From the NCBI RefSeq assembly GCF_001544795.2, contig NZ_FCOI02000004.1, forward strand, positions 310,001-374,000: DNA of 64,000 nucleotides, in the 5' to 3' direction. This document shows positions 2,008-64,000 of the stretch, one piece after another. The notes under the pieces were generated by a model. That model was not told where the DNA came from, did not search any database, and saw nothing but the letters and a program-made list of their open reading frames with translations. Every line of letters begins with the position of its first letter. The stretch's first letter is position 1. The stretch comes from Caballeronia temeraria. GTDB lineage: Bacteria; Pseudomonadota; Gammaproteobacteria; Burkholderiales; Burkholderiaceae. The position numbers and the translations under genes are program-made.

Positions 2008-4353
2008 CTACGCTTCTTCCGGCGGCGCGGCGAGCAAGGCCGTCTGAGTCGTCGTCTGCCACACGTCGAGCCACGCTTCGAGCTTGGCGGGCGGCAGCGG
2101 CCGGCTCAGATGGAAGCCCTGCGCCAGATCGCAGCGCAGCGCCCTGAGCCGCTCCAGCATCTCTTCGGTTTCGACGCCTTCGGCCACGACCTTCAGTCCC
2201 ATGTTGTGCCCGAGATCGATCGTCGAGCGCACGATGGTCTCGTCGTCCTTGTGCTGGAACATGCCCATCACGAACGATTTGTCGATCTTCAGCTCGTCGA
2301 CGGGCATGCGCTTCAGATACGACAGCGACGAATAACCGGTGCCGAAATCGTCGATGGACAGGCGAATGCCGAGCGCGTGCAGCCGGTCGAGCGTCTCGAT
2401 GGCGTGATTTGGGTCGTCCATGATCGCGCTCTCGGTGATCTCGATCCAGATCCATTCGGGCGCGACGCCGTGCTTGTCGAGCAGGCCCTGGAAGATTTCG
2501 GGCAGCGTCGACTGGATCAGCTCGCGCGCCGACACGTTCACCGACACCGCCAGCTCGATGCCCTGCCTGCGCCACGCGGCGCACTGACCGATCGCCTTGT
2601 CGGCGACCCAGCGCGAAATCGTCTTGATGTAGCCCGTCTGCTCCGCGAACGGGATGAACTGGTCGGGCGCGACGAAGCCGCGCGTCGGATGTTCCCAGCG
2701 CACGAGCGCCTCGACATATTTCACGCGATGCGTCGCGAGATCGACCTTCGGCTGATAGTAGAGCGTCAGCTGATCGTGCTCGACGGCCTGCCGCAGCTCG
2801 CTCATCAGCGAAAGACGCTCGGCGCTGTGCTCGTCGTGGCGTTCGTCGTAGAGCGCGAAGCCGAGATTCGAGCGCTTCGCGACGTACATCGCGATATCGG
2901 CGCGGCGCAGCAGCACGTTCATGTCCGTGCCGTTCTGCGGAAACGTGACGATGCCGATGCTCGCGCCGACATCGACGAGCTGCCCTTCGATCATGATCGG
3001 CTCTTCCAGCGCGCGCAGCATCCGCGTGGCGACCCGCCGCGCGGACGGCAGATCGTTGGCGGGCAGCAGCACGGCGAATTCGTCGCCGCCCAGACGCGCG
3101 ACCGTGTCGGATTTGCGTTGCAGCGCCGCGCGCAGGCGTTTGGCCACTTCGCACAGCAGCATGTCGCCGATCGGATGCCCGAGCGTGTCGTTCACGTACT
3201 TGAAGCGGTCGAGGTCCATCATCATCACGGAGAGCGGACGGTTTTCGCGCATCGCGGCGGCGATCGCCTGTTGCAGACGATCGTTGAAGAGCGCGCGATT
3301 CGGCAGGCCGGTCAGCCGGTCCATGTACGCCAGTTCCGTGATGCGCTTCTCGCGCTCCGAGATGCCGTCCCGCATCTGATTGAACGCGCGCGCCAGCTCG
3401 CCGATTTCGTCGTTCTGGCGAATTTCGATCGGCGCGGCGTAATCGCCCTGCCCGATGCGCTTCGAAAACTGCGTGAGCGCCGCGATCGGACGCGTGACCG
3501 AGCGCGCCGTGAGCACGCTGCCGACGATCGAAATCAGCACGCCGAGCAGCGTGATCAGAAGCAGCGTCGATTGCAGCCGATGGAACGGCGCGAGCGCCTC
3601 GTTCAGCGAGCGTTCGAGCAGCACCTCGATCGTGCGGCCCTCGGAATGCAGCCGCATGATGCGCGTCGCGTAGCCGTCGGCGCTGAGTTGCGCCTGATTC
3701 GTGAGCGCGTCGCGCGCGCCGTCCGCGAGCGAACTGGCGAGCACGCCCCATTTGCCGTCGTCGCCGGCCGTGAGGAACGACACGTCGAGCGAGGTGAGCG
3801 AACTCAGGTCGCGCGCGAGGGCATCGTCGACCGCGAAACCCATCACGACCCAGGCGATGGCGATCGGCGCCTTCACCGGCACCGCGACCAACTGATACGC
3901 GCGCGGACCGATCATGCCGAACGACGACGCATCGCCCTTCTTCGCGACGGTCCGGATGAGCTTGGGAAACGGAAACGCCATGCCTTCGTGGCCGACGCCG
4001 CCGCTGTCCGCGATCAGCTTGCCGTCGAGATCGACGAGCATCACGACATCCGCGTGAATGCGGTCGCCGTGATTTTGCAGCGCGGACGCGACCGTCTTGC
4101 TGTCGTGCGTCGCGACGGCCTCGCGAAAGCCGAAGTCGAGCGCGACCACGCTCGCGGCCTGCGTCAACTGCTCGCTGTTGCCGCGCAAAACCTGCGCGAA
4201 CACGCGTTCGGCCACCGCCAGCTGCTCTTCCGCGTTGCGATTCGCGTTCTTCAGAATCACCGAATTGATGACGAGAAACGCCGCAGCCTGCGCGACGAGC
4301 ATCAGGACCACGAAGACGAGCGCGATTCGCGCGCGCAGGCTGTGAAGGCGCAT
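2008..4353 (-). CDS. Cache-HAMP-GGDEF-EAL cyclic di-GMP signalling protein
   Basis: 781 residues. A membrane segment at about 10-32, a periplasmic sensor of the Cache type, a second membrane segment near 265-290, a HAMP linker (TRPIAALTQF) to about residue 330, a GGDEF domain with intact GGDEF near residue 421, and an EAL domain beginning EALVRW near residue 547 with the DDFGTGYSSLSYL loop. Both catalytic signatures look intact, so synthesis and hydrolysis of c-di-GMP are both possible. It is the last gene of a four-gene minus-strand operon with a secreted haemoglobin and a cupredoxin-like protein, 13 bp after the latter, which suggests that the periplasmic sensor responds to a redox, oxygen or metal cue. 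Confidence 0.88.
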   Translation of the reverse strand: MRLHSLRARIALVFVVLMLVAQAAAFLVINSVILKNANRNAEEQLAVAERVFAQVLRGNSEQLTQAASVVALDFGFREAVATHDSKTVASALQNHGDRIHADVVMLVDLDGKLIADSGGVGHEGMAFPFPKLIRTVAKKGDASSFGMIGPRAYQLVAVPVKAPIAIAWVVMGFAVDDALARDLSSLTSLDVSFLTAGDDGKWGVLASSLADGARDALTNQAQLSADGYATRIMRLHSEGRTIEVLLERSLNEALAPFHRLQSTLLLITLLGVLISIVGSVLTARSVTRPIAALTQFSKRIGQGDYAAPIEIRQNDEIGELARAFNQMRDGISEREKRITELAYMDRLTGLPNRALFNDRLQQAIAAAMRENRPLSVMMMDLDRFKYVNDTLGHPIGDMLLCEVAKRLRAALQRKSDTVARLGGDEFAVLLPANDLPSARRVATRMLRALEEPIMIEGQLVDVGASIGIVTFPQNGTDMNVLLRRADIAMYVAKRSNLGFALYDERHDEHSAERLSLMSELRQAVEHDQLTLYYQPKVDLATHRVKYVEALVRWEHPTRGFVAPDQFIPFAEQTGYIKTISRWVADKAIGQCAAWRRQGIELAVSVNVSARELIQSTLPEIFQGLLDKHGVAPEWIWIEITESAIMDDPNHAIETLDRLHALGIRLSIDDFGTGYSSLSYLKRMPVDELKIDKSFVMGMFQHKDDETIVRSTIDLGHNMGLKVVAEGVETEEMLERLRALRCDLAQGFHLSRPLPPAKLEAWLDVWQTTTQTALLAAPPEEA

Positions 4354-4366
4354 TGTGTCGGGCGTC

Positions 4367-4963
4367 CTATTCGGCGGGCCGCAATTGCAGCGCGAACTTC
4401 GCCGCGCCGTCGGCGGTGACCTTCTGCGCCGGTTGCGCGTTCGGATCGCTTTGACGGAAATGCCACGCGATCACCTTGTAGGCATCGGCGGGCAGATTGT
4501 CGATGATCGCGGCGCCGCTCGCGTCGGTCTTGGCGAACCACGGCGTTTCGACGATCAGCAGATACGCGACCATCGAATCGTGAATATTGCAGCCCATCAC
4601 GACGAGGCCGGGCTTGTCGAACACGACCGGATTGGCGGGAATGCCGTGATACAGGTTCAGCTCGAAGCGCTTGGGCGGCGAGAACGAATAGACATCGTGC
4701 TCGATGTTGTCCTTGTTCGGAAACGTCACCGACGCGCCCGTCTGCACGACGGACACCATCGGCACGAAGCGCCGCTTGATCTGGTCGATGACGGCGCCCG
4801 CGGGCTTCGTCGCCGGCAGCTTGCCGTTTACGGGCAGCGCATAGACGATGGCGTCGGGCACGGGCGCGCCGGTCTGATCGACGATCGTCACGCGCACGCT
4901 CGCGGCGTGGGCGATCGTCGCGCCGCACGCGAGCACGGTGAAAAGGGTTTTGAGCATGTTCAT
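4367..4963 (-). CDS. periplasmic cupredoxin-like protein (methylamine-utilisation type)
   Basis: 198 residues with a signal peptide ending AHA at residue 20. The middle has the look of a single-domain blue copper protein: His89 in NIEHDVYSF, and Cys125, His128 and Met131 in GCNIHDSM, the spacing of type 1 copper ligands. The N-terminal half contains a carboxypeptidase-regulatory-like beta segment (VTIVDQTGAPVPDAIVYA). The start at 4963 is set by the signal peptide and by the 4-base ATGA overlap with the upstream haemoglobin gene; longer frames run into that gene. Function is unknown; electron transfer or copper handling is inferred from the ligands. Confidence 0.75.
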   Translation of the reverse strand: MNMLKTLFTVLACGATIAHAASVRVTIVDQTGAPVPDAIVYALPVNGKLPATKPAGAVIDQIKRRFVPMVSVVQTGASVTFPNKDNIEHDVYSFSPPKRFELNLYHGIPANPVVFDKPGLVVMGCNIHDSMVAYLLIVETPWFAKTDASGAAIIDNLPADAYKVIAWHFRQSDPNAQPAQKVTADGAAKFALQLRPAE

Positions 4964-5381: not shown

Positions 5382-6284
5382 TCAGAACCCCGCCTGTAGC
5401 GAAACGTAGAGACCGCGCTGATTCTTCACGGTCGCGATATCGCCGAGCGCGACATAGGCCGCTGTCAGCGAGACGTGCTTGTTCGGCGCCCACGCGACGA
5501 ACGCGTCGTACGCGTCCTGCTCGCGCGCGAACGAGAGATTGTTCGGCTTCATCCGATACTCCGCGCCGATCGCGACGTTCTTCGACAACAGATACGCCAC
5601 CGACGACTCGAATTCCGCGTGATACGCGTTCGACTTGTCGCCGCCGAAACCGAGCAGGCCGAACTGGTTCGCTTTCGTGAAGCGCAGCATGCCGTTGAGC
5701 AGGAGGCTTTGCGCGAGCAGCAGCTTGGTCGCGGAGAGATAGAAATCGGTGCCGGAATTGCTCGCGGCGCCGACGGCCTTCACGATATCGCCCTCTTCGT
5801 TGTGCTTGAACTGCAGGCCGGCCGCGATCTGCGGCATCCACGTGTCCTGATCGAGCACGGCGTCGCCGATGAGACGCACCTTCACGCCGAAGATGTTCTG
5901 GTTGAACTTGAAGTTTTCGCCCAGGCCGAGCTGCGCGCCGACATCGCGCGTATCGAAGCTCTGGCGCGCGAGCGACAGTTCGACGCGATTCGCGATGCCC
6001 ACGGTCAGGCCCCACGTGCCGAGCGCGTAATCCTGCGTGTGGACGTAGGTGCCGTGCGCGTTCGCGCCGAGCTGGCTCGCGGTGCCGTAGCCGCCGATGA
6101 CGGCCCAGGGCGTGAGTCCGCCGCCGGCCGCGCCTTCGATTTCCGAGACGCCGCCGGTCAGCAGCAGCTTGCCGCCGGTGAGCGGCACGACGGGCGGATC
6201 GTCGGCGAAAGCGGACGGCGAGAACGACGCGAGCAACGCGACGGCGAGGCCGGCGACGCGCATCCTGGGGTGAATCGAACGCAT
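5382..6284 (-). CDS. DUF3034 family outer-membrane-like protein
   Basis: 300 residues with a signal peptide ending AFA near residue 23. The mature part is rich in alternating, aromatic-containing strands and ends in F after a short amphipathic strand (YVSLQAGF), the pattern of an outer-membrane beta-barrel. It matches the DUF3034 family from memory (LLLTGGVSEIEGAAGGGLTPWA). The start at 6284 places a typical signal peptide at the N-terminus; the frame extends upstream without support. First gene of the operon with the secreted haemoglobin, cupredoxin-like protein and c-di-GMP protein. Confidence 0.72.
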   Translation of the reverse strand: MRSIHPRMRVAGLAVALLASFSPSAFADDPPVVPLTGGKLLLTGGVSEIEGAAGGGLTPWAVIGGYGTASQLGANAHGTYVHTQDYALGTWGLTVGIANRVELSLARQSFDTRDVGAQLGLGENFKFNQNIFGVKVRLIGDAVLDQDTWMPQIAAGLQFKHNEEGDIVKAVGAASNSGTDFYLSATKLLLAQSLLLNGMLRFTKANQFGLLGFGGDKSNAYHAEFESSVAYLLSKNVAIGAEYRMKPNNLSFAREQDAYDAFVAWAPNKHVSLTAAYVALGDIATVKNQRGLYVSLQAGF

Positions 6285-6804: not shown

Positions 6805-7454
6805 GCACGCGCCGGCGTCGATGCGCCGTGCGGCATCGTCACGCCGAGCGCTTCGGCCTTGAGCACGAGATCGGCGAGCGAGCGCGCGGCCATCTTCTTC
6901 ATCGCCTGACCGCGATGAATCTTCACTGTGATCTCGCTCAGATTCATCTCCGCCGCGATCTGCTTGTTCATCAGACCCGACACGACGAACGCCATCACCT
7001 CGCGCTCGCGCGGCGTGAGCGAATCGTACGAGCGCCGCAAATCCGCGACCGAGCGGCTCGCCGCGCGCCGTTCCTCGTCGGCTTCGAGCGCCTGCGCGAC
7101 GGCATCCAGCATGTCCTGATCGCGGAACGGCTTCGCGAGAAAATCCTTCGCGCCGGCTTTCATCGCCTTCACCGTCATCGCGATGTCGCCGTGCGCCGTC
7201 ATGAAGACGATCGGCAGGCCGAGCTGGCTCGCGGCCATCTGCTCCTGCACCGCAAGGCCGCTCTGCCCTTTCAGCCGCACATCGAGGATCAGGCAGCTCG
7301 GCACTTCGGGCATGTCGAACGCGAGAAACTCGTGCGCGGACGCGAATGTCGTCACGTTCAGGCCGACCGAGCGCAAGAGCATGCGCAGCGCGTCGCGCAT
7401 CGATTCGTCGTCGTCGACCACGTAGACCATCGCGGCCTGCTTGTCAGTGCTCAT
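6792..7454 (-). CDS. FixJ/NarL-type response regulator
   Basis: 220 residues. The receiver domain has the acidic cluster VVDDDES, the phosphoacceptor Asp58 (LILDVR) and the conserved lysine in FLAKPF near 108. A LuxR-type helix-turn-helix follows at about 146-205 (LTPREREVM, KQIAAEMNLSEITVKIHRGQAMKK). The start at 7454 overlaps the end of the histidine kinase gene by 11 bases, indicating translational coupling. Expected to activate or repress target promoters when phosphorylated by the neighbouring kinase. Confidence 0.9.
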   Translation of the reverse strand: MSTDKQAAMVYVVDDDESMRDALRMLLRSVGLNVTTFASAHEFLAFDMPEVPSCLILDVRLKGQSGLAVQEQMAASQLGLPIVFMTAHGDIAMTVKAMKAGAKDFLAKPFRDQDMLDAVAQALEADEERRAASRSVADLRRSYDSLTPREREVMAFVVSGLMNKQIAAEMNLSEITVKIHRGQAMKKMAARSLADLVLKAEALGVTMPHGASTPARAQRL

Positions 7455-9294
7455 CGTCGCTCCCTTCGTTTTCGGGCAGCACGAACAGCAGACGTGCGCC
7501 GCCTTCATCGGGCGATTCCGCCCAGATCCTGCCGCCGTGCGCCTCGATGATCGAACGGCAGATCGACAAACCCATGCCCATGCCTTCGGCCTTCGTCGTG
7601 AAGAAGGCGTCGAAGAGACGGCGCGCATTGTCTTCGCTGATGCCCGTGCCCGAATCCTGCACGGCGATCTCCGCGCAACCGGCGTCGCTTGCGCTCTCGC
7701 GCGTCGCGATGCGCAAAACGCGCGGCCCGTTCACGCCGGACATCGCCTGCGCGGCGTTCATCATCAGGTTGATGAGCACCTGCTGCAACTGCACGCGATC
7801 GCAGCGCACGGTCGGCGGCGGTGTCGCGAGATCGGTGCGCACATCCACGCGATGACGGCCCAGCTCGCGCCGCACGAGCTCGATCGTCTCGCCGATGATC
7901 TCGTTCACGTCGAGCGTCGCGGGCTGACTGTCGCGCTTTCTCGCCATCGCGCGAATGCGTGCGATGACCTCGCTCGCGCGCCTGGCGTCGCGAATCATCT
8001 GCGTGATCGACTGCTGCGCCTCCGCGATTTCCGGCTGCGCGCGATTGAGCCAGCGCAGGCCGGCGTCGCCGCTCGTGACGATCGCGGCCAGCGGCTGCGT
8101 GACTTCGTGCGCGATCGACGCCGCCAGCTCTCCCAGCATCGTGACGCGCGTGACGTGCGCGAGCTCGGCGGTCGAGCGCGCGAGCGCTTCCTGCGCGAGC
8201 TTGGTTTCGGTGACGTCCATCAGCGCGCCGACGTATTCATCGCCGTCGCTTTCACCCGATGCGCGATGCGCGACGAAATGCACGTGCTTCACCGAGCCGT
8301 CCGGCAGCAGCAGTCGATGCTCGACATCGATATCGCACGCGCCGTTCAACGCGGCTTCATGCGCGCCGCGCACGATGCCGATGTCGTCGGGATGCGCGCG
8401 CGCCAGAATCGCGTCGATGGAAGGCGTCATGTCGCGCGGGTAATCGAAGATGCGATACGCCTCGCCGGACCACCACATTGTGCCGGCGGGCAGGCGCGTC
8501 GCGATGGTGCCGGTGAGCGAAAGGCGCTGCGCATCGAGCAGGAAGGCTTCGCTGCGCTTCAACGCATCGCGCTGGCGCTGCAATTCGGCTTCCATGCGCT
8601 TGCGCTGCGTGATGTCGTTGCTCGTCGCGAGCACGGCGCGCGGCATGCCTTTGGCGTCGCGCAGCAAGGCCGCGCGGCTCGCGATCACGATCTCGCCGCC
8701 GTCATGGCGCACGCGCGTGATCTCGCCGTCCCAGCGGCCCGAGCGCAACAGCTCGGCGCGAATTTGTGCGTGCGGCACCGGCGAGTTCGATTGCGTCATG
8801 CGCTGGACCGGCTGGCCGATCGCCTCCCGCGCCGTGTAGCCGTAGAGCGCTTCCGCGCCGCGATTCCAGAAGGTGATGCGGTCGTTCATGTCATGCGCGA
8901 CGATCGCATCGTGCGCGAGATTGAGCAGTTCGAGCTGTTCCTGCGTCTTGGTCGTCGTGGCCTGAATGCGCAGCGAGAGCACGGCGGTCGTGCCGATCGC
9001 GAGCAGGCTCACCGCGCAACGCGCGAGCGCGCCGCCCGACACGTTCTCGTCGTGCGAAAGAATGAAGCCGATGAGCGTGAGGATCACGCAGCCCCACGCG
9101 GTCGTGACGGTCGCCGCGCGATTGCCCGTCGATGCGATCAGCAGCACGACGACGACATACAGCACCGCGATGGCGATATCGAGCGGCGTGAGCGCGTCGA
9201 TGAGAAACACGGCGAGCGCGATGGCCGCCGCGAGCATCGACACGATGCGGGTATCGCGACGCACCGCGCGCGGCGCGCTCTGGATGGTGTCCAT
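7444..9294 (-). CDS. FixL-like membrane PAS sensor histidine kinase
   Basis: 616 residues. The first ~100 residues hold three or four membrane helices. Two PAS domains follow, one with LNLAHDAIVAHDMNDRITFW and a PAS_3-type domain with WWSGEAYRIFDYP. The phosphorylation site lies in the H-box SIAHEVTQPLAAI, and the ATP-binding domain shows N-box and DSGTGISEDN motifs. The organisation and the FixJ partner are FixL-like, but no haem-binding PAS histidine can be asserted. The start at 9294 (MDTIQSAP) is the only in-frame ATG before the first membrane helix. Confidence 0.87.
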   Translation of the reverse strand: MDTIQSAPRAVRRDTRIVSMLAAAIALAVFLIDALTPLDIAIAVLYVVVVLLIASTGNRAATVTTAWGCVILTLIGFILSHDENVSGGALARCAVSLLAIGTTAVLSLRIQATTTKTQEQLELLNLAHDAIVAHDMNDRITFWNRGAEALYGYTAREAIGQPVQRMTQSNSPVPHAQIRAELLRSGRWDGEITRVRHDGGEIVIASRAALLRDAKGMPRAVLATSNDITQRKRMEAELQRQRDALKRSEAFLLDAQRLSLTGTIATRLPAGTMWWSGEAYRIFDYPRDMTPSIDAILARAHPDDIGIVRGAHEAALNGACDIDVEHRLLLPDGSVKHVHFVAHRASGESDGDEYVGALMDVTETKLAQEALARSTAELAHVTRVTMLGELAASIAHEVTQPLAAIVTSGDAGLRWLNRAQPEIAEAQQSITQMIRDARRASEVIARIRAMARKRDSQPATLDVNEIIGETIELVRRELGRHRVDVRTDLATPPPTVRCDRVQLQQVLINLMMNAAQAMSGVNGPRVLRIATRESASDAGCAEIAVQDSGTGISEDNARRLFDAFFTTKAEGMGMGLSICRSIIEAHGGRIWAESPDEGGARLLFVLPENEGSDDEH

Positions 9295-9326
9295 CACGGG
9301 GTCATCGGCGTTGGAAGAGAAACATT

Positions 9327-9746
9327 CTAGTCTTTCAAAAAGCTTTGCCTGATGCGTTCGAGGCAATCGGCGACGACGGTTCCGTCGACGGGCTTGCTGA
9401 GAAAGCACACCGCGCCGCCGTCGAGCGCCTGACGGCGCGCGGCATCGGATGCGAACGCGGTGATGAACATGACCGGCACGCCCGGTTTCAGCTCGCGCAG
9501 ACGTTGCTGGAGTTGCAGGCCGGACATGCCGGGCATGTTGAGATCGGTGATGATGCACGCGAGGCCGTCGAGGGAATCGGCGTCGAGAAACGATTCCGCC
9601 GACGCATACAGGCTGACGTCCCAGCCGAGCGAGCGCAACAGACTGGAAGACGCGACGCGGACGGATTCGTCATCGTCGATTACGGAGACTCTCGAAGGCG
9701 ATTGCAAGGGCGTTGTCCTGGACCGTGCGTGAATATCGGCGGGCAT
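9327..9746 (-). CDS. single-domain receiver protein
   Basis: 139 residues made of a receiver domain and no output domain. DDDES near 24, phosphoacceptor Asp68 (IITDLNMPG) and Lys118 (FLSKPVD) are all present. It lies 32 bp upstream of the sensor kinase on the same strand, so it is probably a third partner of that system, for example a phosphate sink or an allosteric regulator of the kinase, as known for FixL/FixJ-like clusters. Confidence 0.82.
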   Translation of the reverse strand: MPADIHARSRTTPLQSPSRVSVIDDDESVRVASSSLLRSLGWDVSLYASAESFLDADSLDGLACIITDLNMPGMSGLQLQQRLRELKPGVPVMFITAFASDAARRQALDGGAVCFLSKPVDGTVVADCLERIRQSFLKD

Positions 9747-9904
9747 GGGATGTCATCTTACGCACGCGGCAAGGGCCACGAAATCATATGTACGTATAGG
9801 TTCCGGGCGCGCGGTTTCATATGATGAAAATGTCGTGGACGGCGCGCCGAGCGCGATTCGCGCCGAAACCGTATAGTCCCGTCTTGCCACTCCGGATATC
9901 CCCC

Positions 9905-11119
9905 ATGTCGACATCCACATCGGCCGCGCGCGACGGCGGCAAGCACGTCGAGCTCACGCGCGGCCTGATCGCGCTTTTCGCGTTCTGCTGCGGCGCGATC
10001 GTCGCGAACCTCTATTACGCGCAGCCGATCACCGAGCTCATCGCGCCCGATCTGCACATGGCGGGCGGCATGGCGAGCCTGATCGTGTCGCTGACGCAGA
10101 TCGGTTATGCGCTCGGGCTGTTCTTCATCGTGCCGCTCGGCGATCTGCTCGAGAACCGCAAGCTGATGATCGCGACCGCGCTCGTGTCGATTGCGAGTCT
10201 CACGGCCGCCACGTTCACGCACACGCCGGGCTGGTTTCTCGTGATTTCGCTATTGATCGGCTTTTCGTCGGTGGCGGTGCAGATTCTGATTCCGCTCGCC
10301 GCGCATCTCGCGCCGGACGAATCGCGCGGCAAAGTGGTCGGCACCATCATGAGCGGGCTGCTGCTCGGCATTTTGCTGTCGCGGCCGATATCGAGTCTCG
10401 TCGCGGGTCACTTCGGCTGGCGCGTGATGTTCGGCGCCGCCGCCGTGCTGATGGTCGGCATCACGACCGTGCTCGCGTTCACCATCCCGAGCCGGCAGCC
10501 GAATCATCAGGCGACGTACTTTCAGCTCATCGGCTCGCTCGGCCATCTCGTGCGCACGATGCCGGTGCTGCGTCATCGCTCGCTGTATCAGGCGCTGATG
10601 TTCGCGTCGTTCAGCCTGTTCTGGACCGGCATTCCGATCGAGCTGACGCGGCATTACGGGCTTTCGCAGACGGCCATCGGCATTTTCGCGCTCATCGGCG
10701 CAACGGGTGCGACCTCCGCGCCGATCGCCGGGCGTCTCGCGGATGCGGGCCACACCGTGCGCGCGACGTTCATCGCGCTGATTCTCGCGGCCATCGCGTA
10801 TCTGCCTGTGGTGATTCATCCCGCGTGGGGCGTGGGCGCGCTCGTCGTGACGGGCATCGTGCTCGACTTCGCCGTGCAGATGAACATGGTGCTCGGCCAG
10901 CGCGAAATCTACGCGCTACACGCCGCGAGCCGCAACCGGCTGAATGCGGTGTACATGACGAGCATTTTCGTGGGCGGCGCATTCGGCTCGGCGTTCGCGA
11001 GCCCGCTCTACGAGCACGGCGGCTGGACGCTCGTTGCGAGCGTCGCGACGTGCTTTCCGCTCGTCGCGCTCGCGCACTTTCTGCTGATCGGGCGGCATCA
11101 TCACGCGGCTCGCGCCTGA
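9905..11119 (+). CDS. MFS transporter, 12-helix exporter type
   Basis: 404 residues with twelve predicted membrane helices. The early motif ANLYYAQPITELI and a helix-loop-helix with GDLLENRKLM resemble drug/metabolite:H+ antiporters of the DHA1 type. ATG 9905 (MSTSTSAARDGG) is chosen because the upstream part of the frame is basic and non-membrane-like. No regulator is adjacent; the convergent neighbour is the phosphatidyltransferase gene, 20 bp away. Substrate unknown. Confidence 0.82.
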   Translation: MSTSTSAARDGGKHVELTRGLIALFAFCCGAIVANLYYAQPITELIAPDLHMAGGMASLIVSLTQIGYALGLFFIVPLGDLLENRKLMIATALVSIASLTAATFTHTPGWFLVISLLIGFSSVAVQILIPLAAHLAPDESRGKVVGTIMSGLLLGILLSRPISSLVAGHFGWRVMFGAAAVLMVGITTVLAFTIPSRQPNHQATYFQLIGSLGHLVRTMPVLRHRSLYQALMFASFSLFWTGIPIELTRHYGLSQTAIGIFALIGATGATSAPIAGRLADAGHTVRATFIALILAAIAYLPVVIHPAWGVGALVVTGIVLDFAVQMNMVLGQREIYALHAASRNRLNAVYMTSIFVGGAFGSAFASPLYEHGGWTLVASVATCFPLVALAHFLLIGRHHHAARA

Positions 11120-58435: not shown

Positions 58436-60796
58436 ATGCAGCGCAGTATTCGTCCGCTTGTTCCTGAAACCCGGATTCGCCGCGCAAGGCTGCGGCCGCT
58501 CGCGATGCTCGTGCCCATCGTCGCGGGTTTGACATGCGCGAGCGCAGCGGATGCCGCGCCGCCCTTGCCGAGCGGCGGCCAGTTCGTCGCGGGCAGCGGC
58601 GCGATCAGCGGCGGCGGCACCGGTTCGACGCTCACGATCAATCAGACGACGACGCGCGGTGTCATCGACTGGAACAGTTTTTCGATCGGCAGCGGGCGGC
58701 AAGTCACGTTCAACAACGGCAACGGCGCGACGCTCAATCGTGTGACCGGCGGCGATGCATCGGTGATACTCGGGCAGCTCAGCGGGACGGGCAGCGTGTA
58801 TCTCGTCAATCCGCAGGGCGTGCTGGTCGGGCCGGGCGGCGTGGTCGCGACGGGCGGGCGCTTCGTCGCGTCGGCGCTCGATATCGGCAACGACGCGTTC
58901 ATGCAGGCCGGCCCGCTCACGCTTTCCGGCGGCGGCAACGGCATGGTCATCAATCTGGGCACCATTGGATCGAGCGGCGGCGACGTGTTCCTCGTGTCGC
59001 GTTCGGCGGCGGTGAACGGCGGCAGCATCAACGCGCCGAAGGGCTCGGTCGAAATCGCGACCGGCAATCAGGTGCTTTTGCAGGATTCGTCGGGCGGACA
59101 GCAGGTTTTCGTACAGGCGGGCAGCGGCGGCACGGCGATGAACGGCGGACTGATCCAGGCGGCGCAGGCGAACCTGCAAGCCGCCGACGGCAACGTGTAC
59201 GCGCTCGCCGGCAACAGCGCCGCGATCCGCGCGACCGGCACCGCGACGCGCGATGGCCACGTCTGGCTCGTCGCCGATCAGGGCTCGGTCCACGCGAACG
59301 GCGCGATCGCCGCGACGAACGCGGACGGCAGCGGCGGCACGGTCGAAACGCGCGCGAACACGCTCGACGTCGCGGGCGCGAACGTGCAGGCGCGCACGTG
59401 GAAGCTCGGCGCGCCGGCGTTCACCGTCGATCAGGCGAACGCGGATGCCCTCGCGCGCAGTCTCTCCAACGGCACATCGGTCGATGTCGAAGCGAACACC
59501 GGCGATGTGAACGTCGGCGGCAACGTCCAGTGGAACGGCAACGCATCGCTGACGCTCGGCGCGGCGCATGGCGTGGGGATCGGCGCGGGCACGGTCATCG
59601 GCAATGCGGGCAACGGCAATCTCACGCTGCGCGCGGATACGGGCGGCATCGACAACGGCGGCGGCGTGACGAACGGCGGCACGATCGACTGGTCGAAGAG
59701 CGGCGGCATCGTCAGCGTGCTCTACGACATGAACGGCGCCTACGCGCCCGGCACGCTGCTCACGAACAGCGGATGGACCGCCGCGCCGTACAGCGGGCTG
59801 CTCACGCAGGCGACCGCGTACAAGCTCGTGAACAATCTCGCCGATCTTTCCTCCGTGCCGAAGGATCTCGCGGGCAATTACGCGCTCGGCAGGGATATCG
59901 ACGCGACCGCCACCTATCCGAACTATTTCACGGCGATCGGCGCGACGGCGACGCCGTTCACCGGCCAGTTCGATGGTTTCGGCCACACCATCGACAAGCT
60001 CACGACGACGGCGAATCTCGACGACGACCGTCAGGGCATGTTCGGCGTGATCGGCACGAGCGGCGTCGTGCGCAATCTGAATCTCACCAACTCGAACACG
60101 AGCGGCTACTCGTCGGGCGCGTACGGCTTGCTCGCGGGCCAGAACGACGGCCTCGTGACCTATGTCAACACGACAGGCGGCGTCGGGCAGAACGGCTTCG
60201 GCGGCGCGGGCGCGGGCGGGCTCGTCGGCGTGAACAACGGCGTGATCGAGCGATCGTCGAGTACGGCGGACGTCGGCTATCAGATTCCGGCGGGCGGTCT
60301 CGTCGGCGTGAACAACGGCACGATCGCGCAGTCGTACGCGACCGGCACCACGCTCGCCGGCACGCATGGCGAGACGGGCGGACTCGTCGCGTTCAACAAT
60401 GGACTGATCACGCAGTCGTATGCGACGGGCGGCGTGGGCGGCTTCGGCGGTGGCGGGCTGGTGTTCGTGAACGGCGCGACGGGCGTCATCAACGAATCGT
60501 TCGCGGTGGGGCAAGTCGGCGGCGGCGGGCCTCCGGGCGATCCGGAAGGCGGCATCGCGGCTTACAACCAGGGCGCCATTCACAACAACGTCTACTGGAA
60601 CAAGGAAACGACGACTCGCACCAGCGCGGCCGCTTCGAACTCGGGGACCGCGCCGCCCGATTCGAATGGACTCACGACCGCGCAGATGAGCAATGCGTCG
60701 AACTTCCTCGACTGGAACATTCCGGCGGGCGGCGTCTGGGCGATGCCGACTGGCGCGACGCATCCGGTCTTGCAGTGGCAGCAGGCGCAGCCTTGA
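58436..60796 (+). CDS. TPS-type filamentous-haemagglutinin-like exoprotein with GLUG repeats
   Basis: 786 residues. A long signal peptide ends ADA near residue 40. The two-partner-secretion domain follows (TTTRGVIDWNSFSIGSGRQVTFNN, the NPxG-type motif VNPQGVLVGPGG). Beta-helix repeats run to about 480. From ~500 there is a domain with ALGRDIDATATY and several GLUG motifs (GGLVGVNNGVIERS, GGLVGVNNGTIAQSYATG). It is short for the family and lacks a TpsB transporter gene within the window. GGAGG lies upstream of the ATG. Adhesion or surface binding is the family role. Confidence 0.83.
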   Translation: MQRSIRPLVPETRIRRARLRPLAMLVPIVAGLTCASAADAAPPLPSGGQFVAGSGAISGGGTGSTLTINQTTTRGVIDWNSFSIGSGRQVTFNNGNGATLNRVTGGDASVILGQLSGTGSVYLVNPQGVLVGPGGVVATGGRFVASALDIGNDAFMQAGPLTLSGGGNGMVINLGTIGSSGGDVFLVSRSAAVNGGSINAPKGSVEIATGNQVLLQDSSGGQQVFVQAGSGGTAMNGGLIQAAQANLQAADGNVYALAGNSAAIRATGTATRDGHVWLVADQGSVHANGAIAATNADGSGGTVETRANTLDVAGANVQARTWKLGAPAFTVDQANADALARSLSNGTSVDVEANTGDVNVGGNVQWNGNASLTLGAAHGVGIGAGTVIGNAGNGNLTLRADTGGIDNGGGVTNGGTIDWSKSGGIVSVLYDMNGAYAPGTLLTNSGWTAAPYSGLLTQATAYKLVNNLADLSSVPKDLAGNYALGRDIDATATYPNYFTAIGATATPFTGQFDGFGHTIDKLTTTANLDDDRQGMFGVIGTSGVVRNLNLTNSNTSGYSSGAYGLLAGQNDGLVTYVNTTGGVGQNGFGGAGAGGLVGVNNGVIERSSSTADVGYQIPAGGLVGVNNGTIAQSYATGTTLAGTHGETGGLVAFNNGLITQSYATGGVGGFGGGGLVFVNGATGVINESFAVGQVGGGGPPGDPEGGIAAYNQGAIHNNVYWNKETTTRTSAAASNSGTAPPDSNGLTTAQMSNASNFLDWNIPAGGVWAMPTGATHPVLQWQQAQP

Positions 60797-60837
60797 GGCG
60801 TGTTGCCGACGGTTGCAGAGGTCAGATGAAGCGCCAC

Positions 60838-60953
60838 GATTTTTGATCTTTGAGGGAGAAACGCTTGAAGTCGACGCCGATTCGACCTTGCAGCGCGTGA
60901 GGATCAACGTTGAACACGAGCGATTGACCATTACTGCTGAATATAACCCATGA
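60838..60953 (+). pseudogene. SymE-like remnant, copy A
   Basis: The plus-strand frame from about 60840 reads ...TLEVDADSTLQRVRINVEHERLTITAE and matches copy B (LENAGFEPGSRARVHIEHGRLTITAE) residue for residue in register; the ends VEHERLTITAE / IEHGRLTITAE are unmistakably related. The N-terminal part is missing or scrambled, and no start is visible. Followed directly by a hairpin. Confidence 0.6.
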
Positions 60954-60975
60954 AAGGGCTGCAAATGTAGCCCTT
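60954..60975. terminator. bidirectional hairpin between SymE copy A and immunity gene 3
   Basis: Arms AAGGGCT / AGCCCTT with an 8-base loop, placed between the convergent ends of the SymE remnant (stop at 60953) and the immunity gene (stop at 60982). Confidence 0.6.
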
Positions 60976-60981
60976 ACCAAA

Positions 60982-61364
60982 TCATTCACTGGTATATACC
61001 GATGGCCCCATAAGCTGCAAATGCGAACATTCAACCACCAGCGAAGCTTTTTCGCTGTTGATGCTCAGTCTATTCATTTCCGCATCTCTTTCAATAGAGA
61101 TTTCGGCAAGCATACTTGGTGCAATGCCGTTCATATTGACTGACTTTACTCCACCACAATTAAGGCCGCACCGGCATCCGTTGTATCCTTTACCCCACTT
61201 TGGAGGCGGATTGTCGGGCAATTGCCCAACGAGGTCGAATTCAATAACAACTGTTGGGCCTTCCCGATCAATCTTTATACTAAAAAATCAATTAATGAAA
61301 TTTCGACAGGTTTTGAAAAAAACTTTCTTAATAAAACGCTTCCATCCAAGTCATTCCAGAGCAT
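60982..61364 (-). pseudogene. Imm50-like immunity gene with a homopolymer frameshift
   Basis: The ATG at 61364, 9 bases after the toxin stop, opens MLWNDLDGSVLLRKFFSKPVEISLIDF, then meets a TAA. The next frame continues SIKIDREGPTVVIEFDL, NPPPKWGKGYNGCRCGL and ends VYTSE at 60982. Adding one T to the six-T run (61282-61287) joins both into a 127-residue protein. DREGP-x-V-x3-FDL-x-NPP-x-KW is the pattern I associate with immunity family 50. The cognate toxin is the adjacent CT3. Either a true inactivation, phase variation or sequencing error. Confidence 0.65.
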
Positions 61365-61373
61365 AATTTTCCG

Positions 61374-61819
61374 TCAATAGCTGTAGTAGTGATCCAATGT
61401 CTTGGGAACGGATTCTGTTCTGACGTTATCGATGGGCCTGATGTTAATGTGTGGCCCTTGATTTCCAACGCCGTCAGGATAATAGTGGCCTGCGGAATGA
61501 TCCAAGATGATAACTTTTGAACCATCCGCCCTGGTGAATTGATATTCTCTTGTCCATATCGGTTTTCCGGAAGCAACCAAAATGCTATTCCCGTCTGAAT
61601 CCGTCATGCGAACACTTCCATGATCGCCCTCAAAGCCAGTTCGTGGATTGAAAATCTTGTCTGGTCTCTGACTCATGGGTACTCGAGCGTCTCTTTTTGC
61701 TGCTCTAAACGCAGCATTTCTTGACTGAAATCTCGGAGGAGATTGTCCTTCTGACGGTGTACATGCCAGCCCCAACGGATCAACCCACCCACCGGATCAG
61801 GCGCATACGCATAAACATT
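61374..61819 (-). pseudogene. displaced Rhs C-terminal toxin cassette CT3
   Basis: The 5' end (61819) preserves just the tail of an Rhs core, NVYAYAPDPV, then a one-base loss (about 61787-61793) shifts the frame before WVDPLGLACTPSEG. The toxin region (intact frame to 61374, ~125 residues) has FNPRTGFEGDHGSVRMTD, then IILDHSAGHYY, NQGPHINIRP and VPKTLDHYYSY. The conserved histidines look catalytic, as in HNH-like or related nucleases, but no family is named with confidence. A TAA precedes NVYAYA, so it is not expressed as an Rhs fusion. Confidence 0.7.
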
Positions 61820-61904
61820 TTACCCTGACGCATCCGCCCCGCGCATCGGCCGCGTTCCCTTATCCGGCAAGGCTTTCAGCCATCCAGCAAACCGTCGAAG
61901 GGAA

Positions 61905-61975
61905 TTTTTTGCGTAGACGCGATTTTCAGGTCCAACGTATCTCGAAATAACCCGTATTCTCCCTCTGGTCATCAC
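61905..61975 (+). pseudogene. possible SymE-like remnant, copy C
   Basis: The plus-strand frame ends YLEITRILPLVITTAE and then TAA, followed by a hairpin 21 bp later, exactly as in copies A and B. Only the tail is similar and frameshifts must be assumed further upstream (DFQVQRIS). Weak on its own; its position in the repeated unit is the main support. Confidence 0.35.
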
Positions 61976-61996
61976 CACCGCTGAATAAACCGGACA

Positions 61997-62019
61997 AGGA
62001 GCCGCACCAAGCGGCTCCT
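61997..62019. terminator. hairpin between SymE copy C and immunity gene 2
   Basis: Arms AGGAGCCGC / GCGGCTCCT with loop ACCAA. Same placement as the hairpins beside copies A and B. The 134 bp between it and the immunity stop (62020-62153) is AT-rich and shows no gene. Confidence 0.6.
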
Positions 62020-62153
62020 GATGCCAGCCTTCACCCCAAATTAACCATTCTTTTATTTTTTAGACCAGTTAATTGCAAAAAACAAAAATCGCTCACCCAT
62101 ACCATCTCCGCTCGATTCCCTTCATACGGTCCGCCATCTACTCTGTTAGATTT

Positions 62154-62579
62154 TTATTTTCTAAATGAATAGACCCACAATTCGTCAAAAATAAAACTCT
62201 TATCCAAAAAATCCGTCAATGCTTCAAAATCATCGAATTCGTTCGGAAGAGAAAGGCCGACCCCCTTTATGCCATCGACTTGGACAAATCCGCACCATGC
62301 AATCTGCGTCGTAGAATGCTTTAGGACAGCATCGACATTCATGCCTGGCCAAAGTTTCCCCTTGTAATTTCCCTTGAAATTTTTGTTGGCGGAAATGCTT
62401 TCAATGCATCCATTTTTTGGATTATGGTAAATAGTTAGCGTGCCGCCATCTACCTTAACTGTACTGGGATTTACTCGTGCTATTGCATGGGCGCGATCCA
62501 GTTTGTCGATGACAAGGGAGATATTATCACCCAATGAAATTCCGCCTATAGATTGGCCCGGAATAATAATATTATTCAA
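62154..62579 (-). CDS. putative immunity protein for CT2
   Basis: 141 residues with low-GC codons, no signal peptide. It opens MNNIIIPGQSIGGISLGDNIS and ends WVYSFRK. TTG 62579 is the likely start, with AGGAAAG upstream, 11 bp after the CT2 toxin stop. No family recognised; the role is inferred from the cassette arrangement. Confidence 0.62.
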   Translation of the reverse strand: MNNIIIPGQSIGGISLGDNISLVIDKLDRAHAIARVNPSTVKVDGGTLTIYHNPKNGCIESISANKNFKGNYKGKLWPGMNVDAVLKHSTTQIAWCGFVQVDGIKGVGLSLPNEFDDFEALTDFLDKSFIFDELWVYSFRK

Positions 62580-62590
62580 ACTTTGCTTTC

Positions 62591-62917
62591 CTATCTTGGT
62601 CCATTGGACAGAACGCCATCCACATAAACAGGGCTATCAAATATTTTATCGTAATTTTTGAATCCAATCGGTCCAATTCGTCCCTGAGGTTCATCGTTTC
62701 GATAAATTTTCCAATACTCGGTACCATGAACTCCACCGCCGGGGTGGAAATCAAGGACATCCACATCTCCAGCACTAGTTTTACGCGTGAACGTCGTATG
62801 TGATGTTTTTGCGCTATTTGGATTGGTCCCATCTTTTACATAACCCTTCTTCAAAAGGTACGCTTCAACATCTTGAGGTTTTTTGCCGCTCAATCGACTT
62901 ACCCAGCGCCTTTGCAT
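62591..62917 (-). CDS. orphan Rhs C-terminal toxin fragment CT2
   Basis: Up to 108 residues. The homologous toxin region probably starts near 62890 with LSGKKPQDVEAYLLKKGYV and ends WKIYRNDEPQGRIGPIGF, SPVYVDGVLSNGPR. A central HPGGGVHGTEYWKI could be active-site sequence. No Rhs core is attached: its 5' side runs into the SymE copy B on the other strand, so the gene is a truncated, silent cassette unless recombined. Family not recognised. Confidence 0.6.
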   Translation of the reverse strand: MQRRWVSRLSGKKPQDVEAYLLKKGYVKDGTNPNSAKTSHTTFTRKTSAGDVDVLDFHPGGGVHGTEYWKIYRNDEPQGRIGPIGFKNYDKIFDSPVYVDGVLSNGPR

Positions 62918-63021
62918 CGCTCAGGCTCGCGGGTGTCAGGCTGGAGAACGCCGGATTTGAACCCGGCTCCCGCGCTCGCGTTCACATCGAACATGGGCGA
63001 CTCACCATTACTGCTGAGTAG
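62911..63021 (+). pseudogene. SymE-like remnant, copy B
   Basis: The best preserved of the three: FASLRLAGVRLENAGFEPG and SRARVHIEHGRLTITAE, stop TAG at 63019. It aligns with the AbrB-like core of SymE (LKGQWLEAAGF then V-x-V-x-EG-x-IVLTA). The N-terminal part is cut off where toxin CT2 begins on the opposite strand. Confidence 0.7.
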
Positions 63022-63030
63022 ACGAACAAA

Positions 63031-63048
63031 GGGCCGCGTCTGCGGCCC
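63031..63048. terminator. bidirectional hairpin between SymE copy B and immunity gene 1
   Basis: Arms GGGCCGC / GCGGCCC, 4-base loop, then ATCTTTT on the plus strand and TTTG on the minus strand, between two convergent stops. Confidence 0.7.
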
Positions 63049-63054
63049 AATCTT

Positions 63055-63273
63055 TTAATCTACTTGTTCTAATAAAAATTCCATCCCGATCAGCACTCCA
63101 CTTTTATCAAAGTCAAGATATATTTCAGGTCCTTTGTATTCTTTTATTATGGAGTGAAGACCTATCTGTTTTGCGACCACCCCAGGACTTCCTTTTCCAG
63201 GGTGATCTGGCAGGGACAAATAGGCAACATCTCCGTCTTCATTCACAACCATATCAATTCTTCGCTCAGTCAT
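63055..63273 (-). CDS. DUF2283-like immunity protein for CT1
   Basis: 72 residues. VNEDGDVAYLSLPD and IYLDFDKSGVLIGMEFL are the two beta segments of DUF2283 proteins (x-D-x-LY-x-L... DYD-x-G-x-L-x-GIEIL). ATG 63273 begins 3 bases after the toxin stop, with GGAG 6 bases upstream. DUF2283 genes are often neighbours of DUF4258 toxins, which fits the sequence of CT1. Confidence 0.7.
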   Translation of the reverse strand: MTERRIDMVVNEDGDVAYLSLPDHPGKGSPGVVAKQIGLHSIIKEYKGPEIYLDFDKSGVLIGMEFLLEQVD

Positions 63274-63276
63274 TTT

Positions 63277-63915
63277 CTACTCCAACAAATTAATCAAGAC
63301 CGTTTTTATTTTCGCAGTCCCGTTCTTTGCCACTTGGTACACGGCCATACCATTATTTCCGGTAGGCACTAGAACTCGGTCTGCATGAGCAGTATCTGCG
63401 ATTGTCCCAACAGGGTAACCGTCCTTTTCTATCTGCTTTGATAACGCCTTCAAAGCATCTGATGCTGTGTTCTTATCCGGATAAACACCTCGCTCAACGG
63501 CCCTCTCCACCGCGTGCGGCATGTTTGAATTTACTACCTTTTTAGGCTTGGATAATAGATCGCACGACAGCCCCAGCTGATCAACCCACTGCACTGGATT
63601 AGGCGCATACGCATACAGATTAATCCCGCCCGCCAAGCCAATCGGATCCGGCGATATAAACCGCCCCGTGCCAGGATCATAGTATCGGAACAGGTTGTAA
63701 TGCAGGCCCGTCTCCCGATCCAGATATTGCCCCTGGAAACGCAAGTTCTGCTGCGGCTGGTAGTGCTCCGCCGCCGTCTCGATAACCGTGTTGCCCCACA
63801 CCTGATACTGCGTGCGCCACACGATCTCGCCGCTCGCATCGGTCAATTCCTCCGGCGCACCGTTCACGTCCGTATGGTAGTACAGCGTGCGCGGCTGCGA
63901 TGACCTGCACGAACT
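63277..63915 (-). pseudogene. 5'-truncated Rhs protein: core end plus DUF4258-like toxin CT1
   Basis: The frame contains RTLYYHTDVNGAPEELTD, YLDRETGLHYNLFRYYDPGTGRF and the core-closing NLYAYAPNPVQWVDQLGLS, then a ~95-residue toxin with HAVERAVERGV, a central acidic stretch and RVLVPTGNNGMAVYQV. HA-x2-R-x3-RG is typical of DUF4258 domains, a predicted RNase fold. Upstream the frame meets a TGA at 63916-63918 and Rhs similarity ends near 63890, so the several hundred residues of the shell are absent here. Confidence 0.72.
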
Positions 63916-64000
63916 TCAATATCACTGCGACGCAGAGCGGCAAGATCAATTCGCAGACAGGCACGCTCGATCTGAACATGGAGAACAAAGAGGCTGGGGT
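63900..64000 (+). CDS. possible partial reading frame running off the right edge
   Basis: An ATG at 63900 opens MTCTNFNITATQSGKINSQTG and continues LDLNMENKEAG. The alternating polar/hydrophobic beta pattern resembles the C-terminal spike of phage baseplate V or VgrG proteins, but 33 residues are too few for an assignment, and no ribosome binding site is seen. The frame also continues upstream without a stop nearby, so the ATG may not be a true start. Confidence 0.25.
   Translation, partial: MTCTNFNITATQSGKINSQTGTLDLNMENKEAG

Follow-up and report, generated by a model that had tools for sequence, protein, structure and literature searches.

The window analyzed here, a stretch of 64,000 nucleotides from Caballeronia temeraria (contig NZ_FCOI02000004.1, positions 310001–374000; host genome labelled G000, contig C4), carries three minus-strand toxin–immunity cassettes within positions 60903–63867, each with the 3′ end of a plus-strand symE gene and a hairpin downstream. 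We consider it probable that this array represents the decayed remains of an integrase–primase element, predicted to insert into the core of an rhs gene and give that gene a different toxin tip; SymE/SymR would serve as the addiction module of the element. More generally, and with confidence only a little better than even, we propose that Rhs tips change via a dedicated family of integrative elements. Such elements would carry a XerC-like recombinase and a DnaG-type primase, enter as a circle at a fixed core site, bring in a core end fused to a new toxin along with the cognate immunity gene, and be maintained by SymE/SymR addiction; orphan arrays would be deletion-worn strings of these units.

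Complete units were found in other genomes (G and L numbers are our labels for genomes and loci). Their order is core end, tip, immunity gene, terminator, symE, a helix–turn–helix (HTH) gene, a DnaG-type primase gene, a tyrosine recombinase gene and a terminal segment, which is followed by the displaced core end of the next unit; a symR match lies antisense to the start of symE. Tandem complete units are present in Escherichia coli 200164 (at the rhsC site) and SCU-111, where SymE and HTH, on the opposite strand, are followed by primase and an annotated xerC, and E. coli JNE120442 has an identical gene set, with the primase annotated as frameshifted. The counterparts in Caballeronia genome G023 comprise a phage integrase, a CHC2/Toprim primase and an HTH gene, where the integrase shares 45% identity with the E. 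coli recombinase and the primase 50% with its E. coli counterpart. At L045 the Phage_integrase match reaches E = 3.3e-42. At L209 (Chitinophaga chungangae), a SymE-like open reading frame (ORF) is closely followed, on its own strand, by similarity to primase and integrase, possibly a related element in Bacteroidota.

The position at which these units meet the rhs core is nearly constant. All four recombinase-bearing E. coli units, from two strains and two chromosomal places, join the displaced core at rhs nt 4231, in the DPIGL codons, and the terminal segments before this junction are 94.5–95.8% alike. In Caballeronia, displaced core ends start at one core position or no more than about 20 nt away from it: five of the six in G023 begin at nt 5638 and the sixth at 5632, several unlike sequences lying to their left, and the starts in G033 are 4945, 4945 and 4927. 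The distance from integrase to core is equal within each genome (1680; 1707). This junction pattern can be read as the trace expected of a site-specific recombinase, though part of it may be due to shared descent.

For the symE ends of the window, a model termed R1 was built, covering 81 positions (the last 12 symE codons, the stop and the terminator) and based on 14 sequences of the genus with the host genome excluded; its E-values refer to 214 kb searched. The array reads as follows.

60903..60985, plus strand: 3′ end of symE, copy A, comprising roughly the last 18 codons and the terminator hairpin (R1, 50.0 bits, E = 2.7e-10)
60982..61221, minus strand: immunity remnant of unit A, Imm50 (Pfam, E = 9.5e-14, profile 42–118 of 118)
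61374..61819, minus strand: Rhs core end (NVYAYAPDP...) and HNH-type toxin tip of unit A, split between frames (Pfam Tox-HNH-EHHH, E = 4.1e-25 for 61377–61775)
61820..61965, minus strand: match to the terminal segment of integrase–primase units (blastn), abutting core end A
61969..62029, plus strand: 3′ end of symE, copy B, comprising a few codons and the terminator hairpin (R1, 25.1 bits, E = 3.3e-4, model positions 23–81 only)
62154..62579, minus strand: immunity-like ORF of unit B, named by its place; no Pfam match
62591..62917, minus strand: toxin-like ORF of unit B, named by its place; no recognized Rhs core and no Pfam match
62909..63064, plus strand: C-terminal half of symE, copy C, with terminator hairpin (Pfam, 28.9 bits; R1, 67.1 bits, E = 1.8e-14 for 62980–63064)
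63055..63273, minus strand: immunity-like gene of unit C, DUF2283 (Pfam, E = 3.5e-6)
63277..63867, minus strand: Rhs core end and toxin tip of unit C, a truncated rhs (NCBIfam Rhs_assc_core, E = 4.9e-30; Pfam RHS, E = 1.1e-10)

The original prediction, made from the sequence of the window alone, had described a three-fold repeat of SymE remnant, hairpin, immunity gene and Rhs toxin, and the three copies were recovered in that order and orientation. Chance resemblance of the symE tails was considered and excluded by R1, trained without the host genome. Copy B was not among the matches of a whole-genome R1 search at E ≤ 0.01, so that the evidence for it consists of its 25.1-bit score and its position. 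The hairpins of all three copies fold better than shuffled sequences (z from −3.4 to −4.2), and the 5′ half of symE is gone in all three. R1 finds each of them; of copies A and C, which were compared with Pfam, the family SymE_toxin (PF08845) matches only copy C (E = 1.2e-6, profile 21–54), just under its cut-off of 29 bits; Pfam gave no match for the tail of copy A, and intact relatives score up to 64.4 bits. The DNA of copy C (62909–63038) is 91% identical to symE of G009C40. An Rfam scan of 60500–64000 returned no family up to E = 2, and thus no symR is left in this part of the window.

The toxins and immunity proteins were also predicted to differ between copies, and no Pfam family is indeed common to the cassettes (Imm50 and Tox-HNH-EHHH in A, none in B, DUF2283 and RHS in C). 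The designation as Rhs toxin, however, is unsupported for unit B, which has no recognized Rhs core and whose toxin-like ORF begins within the antisense of symE C, and unit A is broken, its Imm50 match being partial and its core and toxin being coded in different frames. Compared with displaced-tip modules, which consist of core end, tip and immunity gene downstream of rhs, unit C fits, unit A has all three families with the frames split, and unit B is without a recognized core. The rhs gene to the right of unit C is truncated and is followed, outside the window, by a VgrG-like fragment (L004:3618–4121, by eye). At the other end of the array, a haemagglutinin-like plus-strand gene (window 58436–60796, by eye) stops about 100 bp before symE tail A.

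The segment 61820–61965, placed between symE tail B and core end A, connects the window with the complete units. In blastn it matched L172 (83% over 110 nt), L171 (94% over 65 nt), L203 (75% over 110 nt) and both L045 and L046 (69% over 132 nt), and the matching terminal segments at these loci likewise abut an Rhs core end (that of L172 by eye); integrase and primase genes lie near the segment of L171, and a primase gene near that of L172. Recombinase and primase genes were not found at the loci of the host genome, where only the terminal-segment match remains. Since this match abuts core end A, unit B was likely once a complete element whose interior has been lost by deletion. Other arrays display the stages of such decay, from the complete unit through symE only to the tail only. 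On the symE side, 22 of 46 elements have an Rhs fragment no farther than 900 nt away, with the near end at −8 to −791 nt relative to the symE stop; the scan reached only about 8 nt past the stop, and junctions deeper in the cassette are invisible to it. Because the elements were found by their tails, losses extending into the terminator would escape as well.

We read the intact symE copies, on the strength of their sequences, as SymE/SymR type I modules under purifying selection and of predicted toxicity. Nine symE leaders align over a 14-bp hairpin in which 7 of 14 pairs change on both sides; slid controls were far lower and 0 of 500 shuffles equalled this value, a count that is not a probability because the leader sequences are related. 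Both leaders folded in that sense have a second hairpin, which lies over the ribosome site. Antisense to the leader, the Rfam family symR (RF01809) matches L054 with 50.0 bits (E = 2.8e-8) and L041 with 51.0 bits (E = 1.6e-8), and matches at E ≤ 1e-3 were obtained for 8 of 10 named loci; two Pantoea copies match as well. The median dN/dS over 220 symE pairs with usable dS is 0.28, with all values below 1 (25 genes, some away from toxins). An HTH_3 gene stands upstream of symE in three of the four cases tested. SymE is characterized as a MazE-like DNA-binding protein in the available part of PMC11894785; the AlphaFold model of SymE (pLDDT 68, pTM 0.50) was too weak for use, and a PDB profile search with SymE returned nothing.

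Three other RNA families were encountered. sRNA-Xcc1 was tried as the symE leader RNA and rejected: it exceeded the cut-off in 6 of 61 genomes, but away from the symE matches. On the minus strand of Pantoea L223, Rfam isrA matches positions 4357–4471 (48.6 bits, E = 9.7e-8) and 7075–7185 (29.7 bits), both below the gathering score of 51 and antisense to symE-like repeats; this RNA may be linked to symE. The manganese riboswitch match (RF00080, 51 bits) at L042:18077–18243 lies close to a symE locus and is probably unrelated to it.

Identity was compared in 16 locus pairs, 15 with different cassettes and one an orthologous control. The last 60 nt of symE are 71–100% identical in 15 of the 15 different-cassette pairs, and in the same 15 the 60-nt block past the terminator does not exceed approximately the 95th percentile of shuffles. 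Terminator identity is intermediate (55–93%), and the orthologous pair shows 88–93% from −120 on. With symE conserved and the block past the terminator at shuffle level, symE is the constant part of the unit and the cassette the part that is swapped. Identical toxins beside different symE genes were also considered as proof of exchange; this argument was dropped, toxin A of the window being only 35% identical to its counterpart in L054 and 48% to that in L203.

The convergence of symE with toxin loci recurs in related genomes. Over 36 genomes of the same genus, R1 gave 26 matches of at least 40 bits (14 of them its training sequences), and an Rhs backbone lies within 6 kb on the opposite strand for 23 of these, on the same strand for none. 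The remaining three are located at a contig end, at the end of a fetched stretch and at G004C96a, which faces a 1373-aa ORF with no Pfam match. The converse association is weaker, with about 10 of about 37 Rhs-core places in the genus genomes (our own grouping) adjoining a Pfam SymE match. Among 42 named Burkholderiaceae symE loci, some identical with loci of the genus set, at least 28 face a polymorphic toxin (26 Rhs/CdiA backbones on the opposite strand and two DUF637, one of which also has PT-VENN); these counts are minima, since the six backbones and Pfam miss divergent toxins, and L166, L171, L176, L192 and L200 are ambiguous. The backbones opposite symE are TPS/CdiA, DUF6531 Rhs, transglutaminase-Rhs and LysM-Rhs. 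Other neighbours of symE include AHSA1, TssA, an oxygenase and an ORC-CDC6-like gene. Good symE leaders, as scored by R2, were seen at L185, L187, L188, L191 and L198 (Burkholderia guangdongensis, Trinickia terrae), where symE is accompanied by the type VI secretion system (T6SS) gene TssA, the ORC-CDC6-like gene, the oxygenase or other genes.

Beyond this family, a contact-dependent inhibition (CDI) array on a Pantoea dispersa plasmid contains five annotated SymE genes within 14 kb, three of which are followed after 39–62 bp by an annotated immunity gene on the opposite strand, and E. coli arrays have the same order, with symE convergent at the immunity end. Seven other loci outside Burkholderiaceae (L208–L214) matched none of the six backbones, no Rhs-core motif was found near symE in the outgroup G043 (four SymE matches), and the phage collection searched held no SymE match. 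A class-level survey detected SymE at E 1e-6 in 7 of 274 genomes, the host included.

The host genome holds two further loci with symE sequence. A second Rhs array (L005, G000:C5, 6000–11300) has one SymE (49.9 bits) and a weak tail (24.1 bits) and adjoins ClpV/TssB-like T6SS genes (by eye). At L163 (G000:C9), a symE leader on the minus strand (about 9900–10020; R2, 72.5 bits) persists where the body of symE has been lost, and it converges with a DUF4279-like ORF (E = 0.0019, below cut-off); two toxin–immunity-like ORF pairs precede the latter in a phage-like region (by eye; plus-strand ORFs 7437–9819).

These comparisons bear on the roles that the original prediction had proposed for symE. 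Its view that the duplicating unit includes a convergent symE gene is supported by the presence of symE and terminator at the immunity end of polymorphic toxin loci in Burkholderiaceae, Pantoea and E. coli. A role as homology block for exchange is in accord with the DNA pattern of constant symE and variable cassette. As a second addiction element, symE is credible for the intact copies, with their SymR match and purifying selection, but not for the 5′-truncated remnants of the window. For complete units, in which symE stands with HTH, primase and recombinase genes, the notion of a passenger falls short.

From the observed unit anatomy, junctions and symR match we infer the following course of events. 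A circular element would be joined by its recombinase to a site within the core of rhs. The resident rhs gene would acquire a core end, toxin tip and immunity gene from the element, and its former tip, still accompanied by its immunity gene, would move downstream. Any loss of the new unit would be punished by SymE/SymR, which would hold the arrival in place. Displaced units would then shed recombinase, primase, HTH and symR by deletion until symE tails remain, and the immunity gene would be the last to decay, presumably under selection for immunity. Some integrative elements enter a gene and rebuild its 3′ end; they have a tyrosine recombinase and bring along the end of the target gene. Here, by contrast, the replacement end would carry another toxin domain and alter the product.

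Several observations weigh against this mechanism. Only 19 of the 79 loci, some of which were counted twice, show similarity to an integrase or primase (flanks of 4–10 kb), and about one third of the 42 Burkholderiaceae symE loci are without a recognized polymorphic toxin. All symR matches fall below the Rfam gathering score of 61, and a gathering-level scan of L004, L054, L042 and L041 did not list symR. The R1 match of copy B is weak. Regarding the junctions, an E. coli core fragment without recombinase begins at rhs nt 4133, and symE-only E. coli units join rhs at 2848 (twice) or about 2845. The terminal segments of both integrase units in G023 are 100% identical, as are both in G033, and the unit pairs in these genomes are therefore not independent, which lowered our confidence in the general account slightly, from probable to the level stated at the outset. 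The two symE-only units of E. coli 200164 that join at nt 2848 lie at L233 17861–21831 (rhs orientation); this position, far from 4231, is perhaps a second junction type.

A rival explanation, which we regard as rather unlikely, is displacement of the type proposed by Jackson by homologous recombination alone: circles would form and insert through homology of the rhs core, and symE, with HTH, primase and recombinase where these occur, would be no more than DNA intervening between an immunity gene and the following core end. Most loci have no integrase, duplication can yield identical junctions within one genome, and the proposal, as worded in the accessible portion of PMC2935791, expects "any intervening genes" to travel along. 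It accounts less well for recombinase and primase genes that recur in E. coli and Burkholderiaceae with their place and order unchanged, and copying of one junction does not yield a core nucleotide with several different left neighbours, as found in G023.

Alternatively, SymE/SymR, with HTH, primase and recombinase, could be a separate selfish island that prefers sites beside immunity genes and carries no tips. That a core end with its own tip follows each terminal segment, and that symE remains on the cassette side during array wear, makes this improbable, even though SymE systems are regarded as selfish elements in mobile islands in the excerpted text of Kawano 2007 (PMC1891008) and symE does stand beside unrelated genes in Trinickia and others. 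It is very improbable that symE tails are kept solely as a terminator for the immunity transcript, with symE a chance neighbour: the tails and terminator survive where the remaining symE is gone, and the window hairpins fold well, but neither the purifying selection on intact SymE/SymR nor its linkage to HTH, primase and recombinase genes would be explained.

The integrative element with its own recombinase, which we prefer, has several known relatives in the literature. The displacement of Jackson 2009 (PMC2935791) is alike in that core ends with old tips are arrayed downstream of rhs and a circle with core end and tip was proposed; compared with the available text, the units described here add recombinase, primase, HTH and SymE/SymR, and their junction position is nearly fixed. 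The E. coli SymE/SymR of Kawano 2007 (PMC1891008) shares the SymE-family protein and the antisense SymR over its start, and a figure legend gives cHTH, primase-helicase, haemagglutinin and RHS as neighbours of SymE, whereas the excerpted text makes no mention of a recombinase, immunity-gene convergence, repeated arrays or tip displacement. Orphan cdiA-CT/cdiI and rhs-CT/rhsI modules (Poole 2011, PMC3150448) are likewise displaced toxin–immunity pairs, and an orphan immunity protein was produced and functional in that work, as far as its available part reports; unlike here, symE has 0 occurrences in its main text. The CDI cluster of Proteus mirabilis BL95 on ICEPm2 (PMC11278526, in part) is similar in that symE converges with HP/cdiI/cdiA, its terminator follows after 6 nt and orphan modules lie farther on; the authors, however, hold symE to be outside the CDI system, and a single locus is concerned. 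With SymE figured beside RHS and haemagglutinin by Kawano and convergent in the BL95 array, the earlier impression that the four-part unit was unfamiliar does not stand. Integrase-like genes recur near Rhs in bee gut symbionts and might aid transfer (PMC5727410, 2017), but primase, SymE and a junction site are not described in the portion available. Partial texts also place symE beside an Rhs-type locus (PMC7764402), and with hecA and in an rhs-bearing insert (PMC8386352). In the literature covered, often as partial text and with subscription journals largely outside it, no paper joined SymE/SymR, an integrase–primase unit and Rhs tip displacement.

When a circle was proposed for Rhs tip exchange in 2009, its origin was unknown and, according to the available part of that paper, no integrase was known beside Rhs (PMC2935791). 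A unit with its own recombinase, primase and toxin–antitoxin pair, together with a near-constant core junction, makes the question of Rhs tip exchange directly testable, and it yields a sequence signature for tracing the history of tip arrays. If true, the proposed mechanism would explain the crowding of SymE around Rhs and CDI toxins and would account for how bacteria keep altering their Rhs weapons.

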